64,000 nt of DNA. It comes from Chthonomonadales bacterium (GTDB lineage Bacteria > Armatimonadota > Chthonomonadetes > Chthonomonadales > CAJBBX01). How positions within the stretch are numbered: position 1 is the stretch's first letter; every line of letters starts with the position of its first letter. Positions 56,394-61,177 of this stretch are shown here, one piece after another. The stretch covers positions 62,001-126,000 of the forward strand of contig JADLGO010000001.1 in assembly GCA_020849275.1 (NCBI GenBank), read 5' to 3'. The notes below the pieces were generated by a model, which saw only the letters and a program-made list of their open reading frames with translations, searched no databases and was not told where the DNA came from. The position numbers were made by a program, and so were the translations under genes.

Positions 56394-56409
56394 TGGCACG
56401 CATTATGCA
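56394..56409 (+). promoter_or_regulatory. Sigma-54-type -24/-12 element, distal
   Basis: TGGCACG (56394-56400), four bases, ATGCA (56405-56409). The invariant GG (56395-56396) and GC (56407-56408) are 10 bases apart, exactly as RpoN promoters require. Only one base differs from the consensus TGGCACG-N4-TTGCA. It faces the signal-peptide-like remnant and, further on, the PEP-CTERM gene. Confidence 0.6.
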
Positions 56410-56697
56410 ATGTCGCAAGCTAGCCCGTACCCATCTGACCCATTCGGGAGTCACCCGGCCGGGCATGGCGCACCTTCATCACCATGGTAGCAAAGGAGAC
56501 CTGCCTGTAGTCGCCAGCCCGTGCCGCGCTCCTTGTCGTCGTGCTGGTCGGCGCCCCTGGGCTGGCCGCGCCTTCCGAGGCGCAGCGACTCGGCAGGACG
56601 CGCAGACCCTCCCGAGCGCGCACGGCCGGAGCGCCGTCCTCGCGATCACGCCGGTATATGACCTGTGTAAGCAGGTGGGCGGCGGGCCACCGCGATG

Positions 56698-56713
56698 TGG
56701 CACGGAACATGCA
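56698..56713 (+). promoter_or_regulatory. Sigma-54-type -24/-12 element of the PEP-CTERM gene
   Basis: TGGCACG (56698-56704), four bases, ATGCA (56709-56713), with GG-N10-GC spacing. It lies 77 bases before the PEP-CTERM start at 56791. It is nearly the same sequence as the distal element, including the TG just before it. Confidence 0.7.
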
Positions 56714-56790
56714 GCGGTGGAGTACGATCGCGCCTGGCATAGGCTACGCCCCGGGGCGTGCAGTGAGGCGCTTCAGAAGGAGGTTCGGTA

Positions 56791-57444
56791 ATGCGTGGTA
56801 AGGGGATCGCGATCGTCCTTGCGATCATGGTGCTCGGCGTCCTCGCCGTGCGAGCGCCCGCGGACGACTTCGACTTCAGCGGGAACTTTACGTATGACAA
56901 CGACGTGCTGCAGTTCAACTTCACGGTCGGCGCGCCAAGCTCGGTGACCGTGTTCTCGTCCTCATGGCTCCAGGGAGACCCGCCCGCCGGCTTCGACCCG
57001 ATGCTTGGAATCTGGGACGCGGCGGGCAACCTGATCGCTTTTCAGGACGACGGCGCCGTCGTTGGAACGACCCTGTCGAACGGGGTTCCCTACAGCCATG
57101 GCACCTGGGACAGCTACTACACCGTGGCCCTGGGCGCCGGCGACTACATCGCCACGGTGACCCAGTTCGACAATTTCAACGTCGGGAGCCTGCTGTCCAG
57201 TGGCTTCGTGCGTGACGGCGTCGCGAACCGGAGTTTCACGAGCGCGTTGGGCTATGGCGGCGCCACCCAGACCTACTTCAACGGCGTGTGGGACGGCCTC
57301 GACCCGCGTACCTCGGCCTGGGAGTTCCATCTGCTGAACGTGGCGGGCGCCACCGTCCAGCCGGCGGTTCCGGAGCCCTCGTCGGCCGTCGCGCTGGCGC
57401 TTGGCGGCCTCGCGCTGCTCGCCCTGCGACGGCGGCGCGCATAG
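56791..57444 (+). CDS. PEP-CTERM protein with DVUA0089-like domain
   Basis: A 217-residue exported protein: signal peptide (KGIAIVLAIMVLGVLAVRAPA), a beta-sandwich of the DVUA0089 type (DFDFSGNFTYDNDVLQFNFT; GFDPMLGIWDAAGNLIAFQD; YTVALGAGDYIATVTQF), and the PEP-CTERM sorting signal at the end: VPEPSS, hydrophobic AVALALGGLALLAL, RRRRA. Such proteins are cut and anchored or released by an exosortase, and usually belong to an exopolysaccharide-linked surface system. GGAGG-type AGAAGGAGG lies before ATG 56791. Its promoter appears to be sigma-54-type. Confidence 0.92.
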   Translation: MRGKGIAIVLAIMVLGVLAVRAPADDFDFSGNFTYDNDVLQFNFTVGAPSSVTVFSSSWLQGDPPAGFDPMLGIWDAAGNLIAFQDDGAVVGTTLSNGVPYSHGTWDSYYTVALGAGDYIATVTQFDNFNVGSLLSSGFVRDGVANRSFTSALGYGGATQTYFNGVWDGLDPRTSAWEFHLLNVAGATVQPAVPEPSSAVALALGGLALLALRRRRA

Positions 57445-57882: not shown

Positions 57883-58617
57883 CTAGGCGCGGCGCATCCG
57901 GCGCAGGGCGAAGACGCCGAACGCCAGGCCGCCGCCGGCCAGCATCGCCAGCGAGCCGGGCTCCGGCACGACCGGGGTGGCAAGGACGGAGACGATCTCG
58001 TTTGTGTAGAGCTGCACGCCTTCTGGACCGTCGAGGAAGGTGTCACTGAGGAACCCGTTGACGATGCTGCGGCCGCCGTTGCCGACCACGATGGCGCCCT
58101 CGGCGCTGGCGAACGTCGCAGCCGTGGTGCCGCTGAGGCCGGTAGAGAAGATGCCCCATCCGGGGTTGAACAGGTCGACCGGGTTGCTGATGCCGGTCGC
58201 GAGCGCCGGGTCGGTTACGGTTACGGTCGTCTCGTTGGTGTTGAGCGTGTACGTGGCGCCGAGCCCGGTGGTGTGGGTGTTGTTCAAGGTCCAGTCGGTG
58301 GCGATCGCCGCGCCGCCGCCGGCCACGAAGGCGTTGAGGGCGGTGAAGGCCGCGTCGTAGGAGAGTCCGCTGGAGTTCTGCTGGAAGAAGATGCCCAGAT
58401 CGAACGTTCCGAGAGCGATCTGCGTGGCGAAGTCCGTCGGGTCGGTGGCCGTGGTCACCGTGTAGCTGCCAGGCAGCGCGGCGAGCGCCGCCGCCATCTG
58501 GTCGGTGCCAAGGGTCAGGTCAACGTAGTACAGGATGCTCTGGGCGCGCGCCGGCCCAAGCCCTACAACTGCCAGGAGCGAAAGGCAGGCTACCGCCCGC
58601 AGAAGCGCTTTGCCCAC
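57883..58617 (-). CDS. PEP-CTERM protein with a GATase/ThuA-like Rossmann region
   Basis: A 244-residue exported protein from GTG 58617 (GAGGAGGGG upstream). The signal peptide is LLRAVACLSLLAVVGLGPARA. The middle (DLGIFFQQNSSGLSYDAAFT; ALNAFVAGGGAAIATDW; PVDLFNPGWGIFSTGLSG) resembles the class I glutamine-amidotransferase-like fold without a catalytic Cys, so it probably binds rather than cuts. The PEP-CTERM sorting signal is VPEPGS, hydrophobic LAMLAGGGLAFGVFAL, RRMRRA. A sigma-54-type promoter lies upstream on the same strand at 58734. The gene is convergent with the other PEP-CTERM gene. Confidence 0.9.
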   Translation of the reverse strand: MGKALLRAVACLSLLAVVGLGPARAQSILYYVDLTLGTDQMAAALAALPGSYTVTTATDPTDFATQIALGTFDLGIFFQQNSSGLSYDAAFTALNAFVAGGGAAIATDWTLNNTHTTGLGATYTLNTNETTVTVTDPALATGISNPVDLFNPGWGIFSTGLSGTTAATFASAEGAIVVGNGGRSIVNGFLSDTFLDGPEGVQLYTNEIVSVLATPVVPEPGSLAMLAGGGLAFGVFALRRMRRA

Positions 58618-58733
58618 TGTCTACCCCTCCTCGCGCGTCAGCGCGAACACGTTTGATATCGGCTTGCTCACCCCGCCAGACCGGTTCCGACCGGGACGCG
58701 CGGAGCGACGGCAGGGCGCCGCACAGCCTTCGC

Positions 58734-58749
58734 TGCAAGATCCATGCCA
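58734..58749 (-). promoter_or_regulatory. Sigma-54-type -24/-12 element of the second PEP-CTERM gene
   Basis: On the minus strand: TGGCATG (58749-58743), GATC, TTGCA (58738-58734), again with GG-N10-GC spacing and one mismatch to consensus. It lies about 117 bases before the GTG at 58617. Confidence 0.72.
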
Positions 58750-58807: not shown

Positions 58808-59851
58808 TCAGCCTGCCTGGCCCGCGACGAAAGCCTCCAGGGCGGCCGCCCCGATCGCGGAGACGGCCGTGTAGCCGCGGCGGCCGCGAAACCAGGCGAT
58901 CGCCTGCGCGCGGTCGCGGCGGGCGAGGAAGGCGGTGAGGTGGCCGAGGCGCAGCCGGCGCCAGCCTCGGGGCGGGTCGGTCCGCGGGCCGTGCGCCTCG
59001 CGAACGAAGACGCTCAGCGAAGCGAGCCCGTCACTGTATACCACCTGCGTGGCCGGCTTGCCGCCGATCCGGCTGCCGAGGGCCCGCGTCGCGCGGAACC
59101 CCAGCGGGCCCTCGGCGCGCAGCCCCAGCCGGGCGGCGACCGCGCCCGGTTCGTCGGCGCGTTTCGGCCGGGCGGGAGCCGGCGCGGCAACCACGTGGGA
59201 GCGGTCGCCAGGCGGGAGCGTGAACCAGTCGTCTGGCGTCGACCGTGGGAACCGGACCTGCTGGTAGCTCAACAGGCTGACCAGCGCGCCGCTCGCGGCG
59301 CGCGTTTCAACCCGCAGCGTGCGGTAGGTGGCCCGGTCCACCCAGCGCCGCTGGGAGACCTTGCCGGGCCGACGGGGGCGGACCTCCAGGAGGTAGCACG
59401 GCCGCCCGGCGGCCGTGGCCCGCTCGGCGACGAGCGCGATACGGTAGTTGCGCAGGATCAGCGCGTGGGCGGCGGCGACGGCCGGGTCGGGCGGAGGCGA
59501 GTCAGCACGGGTCGCGGTGCGGGCGCGGGGCTCGTACTGCCACCGCGTCCTGCCGTCGAAACAGACGATGCGGCCGCGCGCGGCGCGCGGGGCCTCGTAG
59601 TCCATGCGGTAGCGGCCGCGGGAACCGTAGCGTACCCGCGCCAGGGTCGAGGTGGTGTGACGGGTGCCCCACACCTGGAGCGCCATCGTCGCCTCCATCG
59701 GCGTGTCCGCGCCCCGGGTCAGCGCCAGGCGCCAGATGCGCGACCCGGCGGTCTGCGACCGGGTCTCCGTTGCCGGCGCGGCGGCTACCGTCGCGGCGAG
59801 CGCCAGCGCGGAGGTGATCGCCGCCGCGCGGGGAAGGCGCTCAGAGCGCAT
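58808..59851 (-). CDS. RseB/MucB-like periplasmic regulator of sigma-factor activity
   Basis: A 347-residue exported protein (signal peptide LPRAAAITSALALAATVAAA). The N-terminal part is a LolA-like beta-domain (MEATMALQVWGTRHTTSTLA; RYRMDYEAPRAARGRIVCFD; RPCYLLEVRPRRPGKVSQRR). The C-terminal part (QVVYSDGLASLSVFVREAHG; RLRLGHLTAFLARRDRAQAI) matches the MucB/RseB C-terminal domain. RseB-like proteins bind the anti-sigma factor and sense envelope stress. Its start overlaps the anti-sigma gene by 11 bases, giving the classical order sigma, anti-sigma, RseB. Confidence 0.85.
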   Translation of the reverse strand: MRSERLPRAAAITSALALAATVAAAPATETRSQTAGSRIWRLALTRGADTPMEATMALQVWGTRHTTSTLARVRYGSRGRYRMDYEAPRAARGRIVCFDGRTRWQYEPRARTATRADSPPPDPAVAAAHALILRNYRIALVAERATAAGRPCYLLEVRPRRPGKVSQRRWVDRATYRTLRVETRAASGALVSLLSYQQVRFPRSTPDDWFTLPPGDRSHVVAAPAPARPKRADEPGAVAARLGLRAEGPLGFRATRALGSRIGGKPATQVVYSDGLASLSVFVREAHGPRTDPPRGWRRLRLGHLTAFLARRDRAQAIAWFRGRRGYTAVSAIGAAALEAFVAGQAG

Positions 59852-60371
59852 CGAAGTCCTCGGGCGCCTGGAGTCGGGCCGTCGCCTCGGCGTGCGCGTC
59901 GCGCTGGAACTCGGCGCTCGGGCCGGCCTCGGCCAGGGCCTGAGCCGCGTGGAGCGCCACCATCTCGTCGATCTCGCGAACCGCGGGAAGGCCGCCCGAG
60001 ACGCCGCTCGATCGGCCTGGCGCGAGAAGGCCGGGACCGATGGCGACGGCTCCCCCGAGCACCGCGAGCGCGGCGGCGGTCGCCCACCCGAGGCGGCGGC
60101 GCAGGGCAGGCGGACGGGGCCGCGCGGACCGCGCGCCCGCTTCCGTGCCGGCGCCGGCGCGGAAGCGGGCCAGCACGCGCTCCCGCGACGGGCCCGCCTC
60201 GGGCGCCGGAACGTTGCCCAGGAGGCGGCGCGTTGCCGCGAGGGCCGCGTGCTCCCGCCGGCAGGCGCGGCATTCGCGCAGGTGGTCGGCGACCGCCACG
60301 GCCGTCTCGGCCGGCAGCGCGCCGTCGATGAAGTCATTGATCGCGCGCAGCATATCGCTACAGGTAGTCAT
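59841..60371 (-). CDS. Anti-sigma factor with zinc-binding ZAS domain
   Basis: A 176-residue membrane protein. Residues 1-48 form the zinc-associated anti-sigma domain with the motif H-x3-C-x2-C (HLRECRACRREH), which clamps the sigma factor in the cytoplasm. One transmembrane helix (WATAAALAVLGGAVAIGPGL, about residues 94-113) follows. The rest is periplasmic. It lies 40 bases after the sigma gene and overlaps the RseB-like gene. Release of the sigma factor would follow cleavage of this protein under envelope stress. Confidence 0.88.
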   Translation of the reverse strand: MTTCSDMLRAINDFIDGALPAETAVAVADHLRECRACRREHAALAATRRLLGNVPAPEAGPSRERVLARFRAGAGTEAGARSARPRPPALRRRLGWATAAALAVLGGAVAIGPGLLAPGRSSGVSGGLPAVREIDEMVALHAAQALAEAGPSAEFQRDAHAEATARLQAPEDFDAL

Positions 60372-60411: not shown

Positions 60412-61002
60412 CTATGGGCGCGTCACGTGTGCCGCGAGGGCTCTCCGCAACTGGTTGCGTCCCCGGTGCAGGCGCGAGCGCACCGTGCCGATCGGGATGC
60501 CGAGCGCCCGGCTCACGTCGGCGTAGTCCATCTGCTCCATGTCGGCCAGCACCACCACGGAGCGGAACTCCTCCGGCAGGGCCATCAGCGCGCCCTGCAC
60601 CTCCTCCGAGAGCGAGTTGTCGACGACCAGGCGCACAGGATCGGCGGACTCGTCCACGATCGCGTCGGCACCGTGGCCATCGCCGTCTTCCAGACTCTCG
60701 GCGGCGTGACGTCTCGCGCGGCGCACCATGTCGATCCGCGTCGTGGTCATCACCCGGTACATCCACCGCATGAAGGTCGTCTCTCCACGGAACTGGTGAA
60801 AGGACCGAAAGCCCTCGATCAGCGCCTCGCTCATCAGGTCCTCGGCGTCGTCGCGGCTGCCGGCCGTGCGGTAGGCGTAGCGCCACAGGGCCTCCCAACA
60901 CTCGTCGATGAGGGCTTCGAAGGCTGCCTGTTGTCCGGCGCCGGTGTGCTGCTCCGCCGCGCGTCGCGGAAGGCCGAGTCTCATGGTGGTGGCGGTCGCC
61001 AT
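60412..61002 (-). CDS. ECF-type RNA polymerase sigma factor
   Basis: A 196-residue sigma factor of the sigma-70 ECF group. Region 2 is AAFEALIDECWEALWRYAYR, DAEDLMSEALIEGFRSFHQF, and FMRWMYRVMTTTRIDMVRR. Region 4 is LPEEFRSVVVLADMEQMDYA, VSRALGIPIGTVRSRLHRGR. There is no strong ribosome binding site. ATG 61002 gives a normal N-terminus, but ATG 60984 is also possible, and a frame to 61116 exists. It heads the operon with the anti-sigma and RseB-like genes and probably controls it. Confidence 0.88.
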   Translation of the reverse strand: MATATTMRLGLPRRAAEQHTGAGQQAAFEALIDECWEALWRYAYRTAGSRDDAEDLMSEALIEGFRSFHQFRGETTFMRWMYRVMTTTRIDMVRRARRHAAESLEDGDGHGADAIVDESADPVRLVVDNSLSEEVQGALMALPEEFRSVVVLADMEQMDYADVSRALGIPIGTVRSRLHRGRNQLRRALAAHVTRP

Positions 61003-61177
61003 AACAACCGCAATGGCGCGCGCGGCGCGCCCAAAGGTTCCGTCGGGGCTCGCCCATCGCGCTGCCGCTTCACGCGCCCCCGCCTGGGTGGCGAACCCTC
61101 GGCGCGCCCGCGGCACTTCCTGCCGTGGCGGCCAGGAGGCTACGTCCGGGACGGGCCTTGCGCGGGCCGCACGACGA

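Follow-up and report, generated by a model that had tools for sequence, protein, structure and literature searches.

The stretch of 64,000 nucleotides analysed here (the window) comes from the genome of a Chthonomonadales bacterium of the phylum Armatimonadota and carries three sequence elements of the sigma-54 -24/-12 type, two of which each precede a gene encoding a PEP-CTERM protein. It is highly likely, judging by the sequences of this genome and of its relatives, that these elements are genuine sigma-54 promoters of one surface-matrix regulon, and that the activator of this regulon, which has no DNA-binding domain, acts from solution.

Sigma-54-type elements and PEP-CTERM genes of the window

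A preliminary description of the window had reported two sigma-54-type elements on the + strand, at 56394-56409 and 56698-56713, each one mismatch from TGGCACGN4TTGCA and each with GG-N10-GC spacing. Both elements (TGGCACGCATTATGCA and TGGCACGGAACATGCA, respectively) and their spacing were found as described, but the count was too low, since a third strong element, TGGCATGGATCTTGCA, is located at 58734-58749 on the - strand. All of them have GG at -24 and GC at -12 with 10 nucleotides in between, in accordance with the sigma-54 consensus TGGCACG-N4-TTGC. A scoring matrix trained only on genomic sites outside the window ranked the elements at 56698 (26.5 bits), 58734 (26.4 bits) and 56394 (24.7 bits) as the top three in the 64 kb. 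The next best sequence scored 11.6 bits, and the reversed window, used as a control, did not exceed 7.2 bits. Taken alone, the window contains six matches to TGGCACGN4TTGCA at up to two mismatches against 5.7 expected from shuffled sequence; loose matches are thus at the chance level here, and the judgement of the sites rests on the genome.

The 56698 element would serve the PEP-CTERM gene at 56791-57444 (+). The encoded protein of 217 amino acids belongs to the DVUA0089 family and possesses a signal peptide and a VPEPSSA...RRRRA tail, and its assignment is supported by the models NF038127 (140.9 bits, cut-off 29) and TIGR02595 (23.6 bits, cut-off 16). A search using this protein itself as the query found no named relatives. 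There are 77 nt between the site and the start codon, which follows the beginning of the site by 93 nt, and the ribosome-binding site falls into this interval; the transcript would be expected to start near position 56724. The element at 58734 is located upstream of a second PEP-CTERM gene, 57883-58617 (-), which encodes a protein of 244 amino acids with a VPEPGSLAML...RRMRRA tail and whose transcript would be expected to start near position 58723 (-).

The 56394 element lies 304 bp upstream of the 56698 element and 397 bp ahead of the start codon of 56791-57444, and of the two only the 56698 element is at a normal distance from this codon. Behind the distal element, at 56490-56620 (+), an SD-like AAAGGAG is followed by a stretch that resembles a signal peptide but has no intact start codon; this can be read, speculatively, as a possible remnant of a gene for a secreted protein. 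Comparison of this stretch with the other PEP-CTERM genes revealed no significant protein similarity. Given this arrangement, the 56394 element may be the orphan promoter of a lost gene; alternatively, it may be an additional distal promoter. Elsewhere in the genome, the site C36:47143 (-) (L068) stands before the start of a PEP-CTERM-like secreted protein; after about 100 residues the reading frame seems to be degraded, and it is probably a pseudogene. The window also encodes an ECF-type sigma-70 family factor (60412-61116, -), followed by a gene (59841-60371, -) whose small product, Cys-rich at its N-terminus (MTTCSDMLRAINDFIDGALPAETAVAVADHLRECRACRREHAAL), looks like an anti-sigma factor.

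Distribution of the sites in the genome and in related genomes

Statements on the whole genome (4.80 Mb, 73 contigs, 99.9% complete) are based on pattern searches, family searches and the study of individual stretches. The pattern TGGCACGN4TTGCA with at most one mismatch occurs 50 times, compared with 22 occurrences of the reversed pattern. The search with PF07589, in which the motif was not used, gave 25 credible PEP-CTERM genes, and a sigma-54 site was found upstream of 23 of them, compared with 0/25 in the reversed control (Fisher p 3e-12). The sites of 22 of these genes score at least 16 bits when sites of the region under test are withheld from the matrix; that of the 23rd gene, TGGCATGGATCGTGCA, was identified by sequence. 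In the 24th case (C60:39551) an exact site stands at the head of a polysaccharide operon in which the PEP-CTERM gene follows a Wzy gene, and the remaining gene (C27:30054) has a weak match only. One more PEP-CTERM gene, C2:33464-34162, encoding a SVPEPGDLGLL...RRRRM tail with a short extension, was missed by PF07589 (L090); it is preceded by a TGGCATGAATCATGCA site at C2:33386 (+). The median distance between the end of the site and the start codon is 72 nt. At positions 2 and 3 of the spacer, which lie outside the search pattern, 30 of 31 sites have A or T (p 5e-15), against a background of 70% G+C.

Besides single PEP-CTERM genes, strong sites precede exopolysaccharide operons and some other genes. 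The site C54:60150 heads an operon for a sugar transferase, a Wzz-like protein, a glycosyltransferase, an exosortase and EpsI, while C60:45765 heads a Wzz-Wza pair and C60:42157 the operon of the Wzy gene with a PEP-CTERM gene. A second sugar transferase gene is located behind the site C36:17517, a UDP-GlcNAc 2-epimerase gene behind C58:25287, a Gfo/Idh oxidoreductase gene beside an acetyltransferase-like frame behind C49:52872, a gene for a secreted GDSL esterase behind C63:118592 and a MinD/ParA-like gene, divergent from rpoN, behind C2:39070. The expected exosortases are encoded in this genome together with proteins bearing the PEP-CTERM tail, the two components by which such a system is recognised. 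Among the 50 matches, some with a single mismatch fall within coding sequences or ahead of unrelated genes; these are probably due to chance.

In three rpoN-positive relatives representing two families, a site of at least 10 bits was found at 15 of 40 PEP-CTERM genes by a matrix trained on the source genome and not on the relatives, while the reversed control gave 0/40. In the rpoN-negative relative G126, which has 32 PEP-CTERM hits, there was no site at any of 20 PEP-CTERM genes (p 8e-4 versus 15/40). Within the phylum, rpoN and exosortase genes are both widespread with no strict link between them, and several relatives have an exosortase without rpoN. The rpoN-negative genomes G082 and G102, of the same family, and G075, of the same order, have kept an exosortase and gave no PEP-CTERM match with PF07589, so their exosortase may sort another tail. 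The enrichment of the motif upstream of PEP-CTERM genes, anticipated in the preliminary description, thus proved to be massive both in the genome and in its rpoN-positive relatives, and the supposed link between RpoN and PEP-CTERM proteins outside Proteobacteria is strongly supported at the sequence level.

Two explanations that would dispense with sigma-54 can be weighed against these data. Chance matches in G+C-rich DNA would agree with the window count at two mismatches, which equals the shuffled expectation, but the 50 genomic matches would be expected to place 0.05 matches upstream of the 25 PEP-CTERM genes, and 23 of these genes have a site. A chance origin is ruled out by these counts, and its probability is negligible. 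It is also extremely unlikely that the sites are recognised by some regulator other than sigma-54, since the GG-N10-GC spacing, the A/T spacer and the distance to the start codon are at odds with this idea, as is the presence of the sites only together with rpoN, the PEP-CTERM genes of G126 having none.

The activator and the absence of a detectable enhancer motif

As was anticipated, the genome has rpoN, in the form of one complete gene encoding the AID, CBD and DBD regions and the RpoN box ARRTVVKYRE. The search with PF00158 gave five matches, of which only that with 244 bits is a true sigma-54 activator; the other four score 21-32 bits. This sole activator comprises a receiver, an AAA+ domain and a lid, without an HTH or any other DNA-binding domain, which is the composition of group 5 activators (FlgR/CtcC type). 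The gene upstream of it encodes a GAF-GAF-PAS histidine kinase. The stop codon of the activator gene lies 36 bp before an exact sigma-54 site (C52:65354), the own site of the receiver-PilZ gene directly behind the activator (C52:64309-65313; L087:8310-9314, -). A frameshift concealing an HTH of the activator was considered and rejected, because these 36 bp lead straight to the site and to the next gene, leaving no hidden domain, and because the activators of 13 relatives stop at the corresponding position. A sigma-54 site also follows the activator gene in the relatives L099, L100, L101, L103 and L105, in some of them with a receiver-like reading frame after it.

Within the order, each of the 13 rpoN-positive relatives has exactly one activator, all of them ending right after the lid, and the six rpoN-negative relatives tested have none. 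The DNA-binding domain is consequently absent from the sole activator in all 14 genomes of the order, counting the source genome. In 13 of these 14 activators, including that of the source genome, the GAFTGA motif is replaced by NAFTGA. The same change is reported for Paracoccus and Ruegeria, each time in the sole activator (PMC3162934), which marks it as tolerated, though unusual. Of the 21 activators from outside the order with readable ends, 16 lack a DNA-binding domain, one of them belonging to a named Chthonomonas, and five have a longer tail; nine further activators that could not be parsed are excluded from the 21. Among the best 80 named relatives of the activator, which come from many phyla, nearly all readable ones have a C-terminal extension, and the Chthonomonas protein is a clear exception. 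The best-scoring named relative among the matches listed from 84,980 genomes is also from Chthonomonas sp., a relationship that by itself points to Armatimonadota as the likely phylum. Since the nearest named relatives in many phyla mostly have the extension, the loss of the domain looks independent of that in FlgR and CtcC.

The search for enhancers covered 30 upstream regions, from -200 to -5, in which spaced-word motifs were compared with dinucleotide shuffles. No shared motif was detected in these regions, the best score being 4.9 against a mean of 4.8 and a maximum of 6.7 for the shuffles. When motifs of 85% fidelity were planted in 60-80% of the sequences, they scored 9 to 23 and were recovered each time, so a motif 1 of the proteobacterial style and of that strength would show up; the test is limited to motifs of moderate strength, as a motif planted at 75% fidelity was missed.

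The preliminary description had suggested that the PrsK/PrsR logic of Proteobacteria might extend to this genome. In the standard system an enhancer-binding response regulator recognises a motif some 60 nt ahead of every sigma-54 site. The adjacency of the kinase and activator genes would be in line with such a system here, as would a gene divergent from this pair that encodes a TPR protein of 863 amino acids (L087:13747-16335, +, contig C52), for which PrsT (TIGR02917) is the best model. The score of this TPR protein (202.3 bits) is, however, below the cut-off of 312.2, and the activator reaches 380.6 bits with the PrsR model TIGR02915, whose cut-off is 502.6, and lacks the Fis domain. The 25 best-scoring of 92 families for the GAF-GAF-PAS kinase do not include PrsK (TIGR02916), and motif 1, which should lie about 60-63 nt upstream of the sigma-54 site, was not found between -200 and -5 down to 85% fidelity. 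The neighbourhood thus echoes PrsK/PrsR/PrsT without passing the models tested; neither prsR nor the same regulatory logic could be recognised, and the standard system is a very unlikely explanation. Somewhat less improbable, but still unlikely, is the recruitment of the activator by another DNA-binding protein, or its use of weak non-specific DNA contacts, in which case enhancers would be present in degenerate form; in favour of this, the motif test covered -200 to -5 only and loses power at 75% fidelity. A sole activator that has no DNA-binding domain in any of the 14 genomes of the order needs no such targeting. Moreover, FlgR and CtcC also lack this domain (PMC7175178), and FlgR of Helicobacter is enhancer-independent according to the title of a reference (B179) in PMC3162934.

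The absence of a DNA-binding domain and of a detectable enhancer motif makes it most likely that the activator works from solution, and we infer the enhancer independence by analogy with FlgR. RNA polymerase with RpoN would wait as a closed complex at approximately 30 or more -24/-12 promoters, those of the PEP-CTERM genes, of the exopolysaccharide operons (one with exosortase and EpsI) and of the receiver-PilZ gene. The genome's sole sigma-54 activator would be supplied by the kinase and the response regulator that are encoded together. Once phosphorylated by the kinase, the activator would act on all promoter-bound sigma-54 holoenzymes at once, and polysaccharide, exosortase and PEP-CTERM proteins would be switched on together. 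As this only activator has no DNA-binding part, a single signal is probably enough to switch on the entire set with no need of enhancer sites, and the regulon would be defined by the sigma factor itself and not by an enhancer. The receiver-PilZ protein, having its own site, may add a c-di-GMP input, although this is speculation. More tentatively, it is conceivable, if somewhat short of probable, that sigma-54 serves throughout the order as a dedicated enhancer-free matrix switch, with one activator lacking a DNA-binding domain and a receiver-PilZ loop with c-di-GMP input.

Comparison with known sigma-54 systems

Sigma-54 regulation of PEP-CTERM proteins, as proposed, had been described as restricted to Proteobacteria; among the genomes of Haft et al. 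(2006), only those of Proteobacteria share the motifs (PMC1569441). The RpoN dependence of pepA is known for Aquincola (PMC9850573). A literature search, in which subscription journals were mostly outside the coverage, found no paper combining Armatimonadota and PEP-CTERM, nothing on Armatimonadetes and sigma-54 beyond an unrelated metagenome paper, and, in titles and the beginnings of abstracts, no sigma-54 control of exosortase systems outside Proteobacteria.

The set described here resembles the proteobacterial PrsK/PrsR/PrsT system in having -24/-12 sites ahead of single PEP-CTERM genes at a distance of about 70 nt (71 nt to the start in Proteobacteria; PMC1569441), in the link to exopolysaccharide and exosortase genes, and in the adjacency of a kinase and a sigma-54-interacting response regulator. 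It differs in the activator, which lacks a Fis domain and scores below the PrsR cut-off, in the kinase and in the lack of a detectable activator-binding motif. The coverage of PEP-CTERM genes is 23/25, compared with 99/167 in the proteobacterial system (PMC1569441). At the sequence level, the link between RpoN and PEP-CTERM proteins reaches beyond Proteobacteria, probably to Armatimonadota, with different regulators. The same promoter logic in another phylum may have arisen by convergence, or it may go back to an ancient association of sigma-54 with matrix building that outlived a change of the activator.

With the group 5 (type Ic) activators FlgR of Helicobacter and CtcC of Chlamydia, which have no DNA-binding domain (PMC7175178, PMC7482065, PMC3162934), the activator shares the composition of receiver and AAA+ domain only and the position of the sole activator found in the genome, and in both cases the regulon would be defined by the sigma factor. 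Unlike them, it is associated with exopolysaccharide and PEP-CTERM surface proteins and not with flagella or chlamydial late genes, and most activators of the order have the NAFTGA loop. Here a sigma-54 regulon occurs naturally with a single activator and without detectable enhancers, and activators of the same type are present across the whole order. As such a regulon can be read directly from the sequence, dozens of functionally uncharacterised PEP-CTERM surface proteins could be studied as one co-expressed set.

The placing of exopolysaccharide and cell-surface genes under sigma-54 agrees with the survey of the sigma-54 'exterior' by Francke et al. (2011), the text of which mentions neither PEP-CTERM nor exosortase (PMC3162934). 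In distinction from that survey, surface proteins and matrix genes constitute most of the recognisable regulon here.
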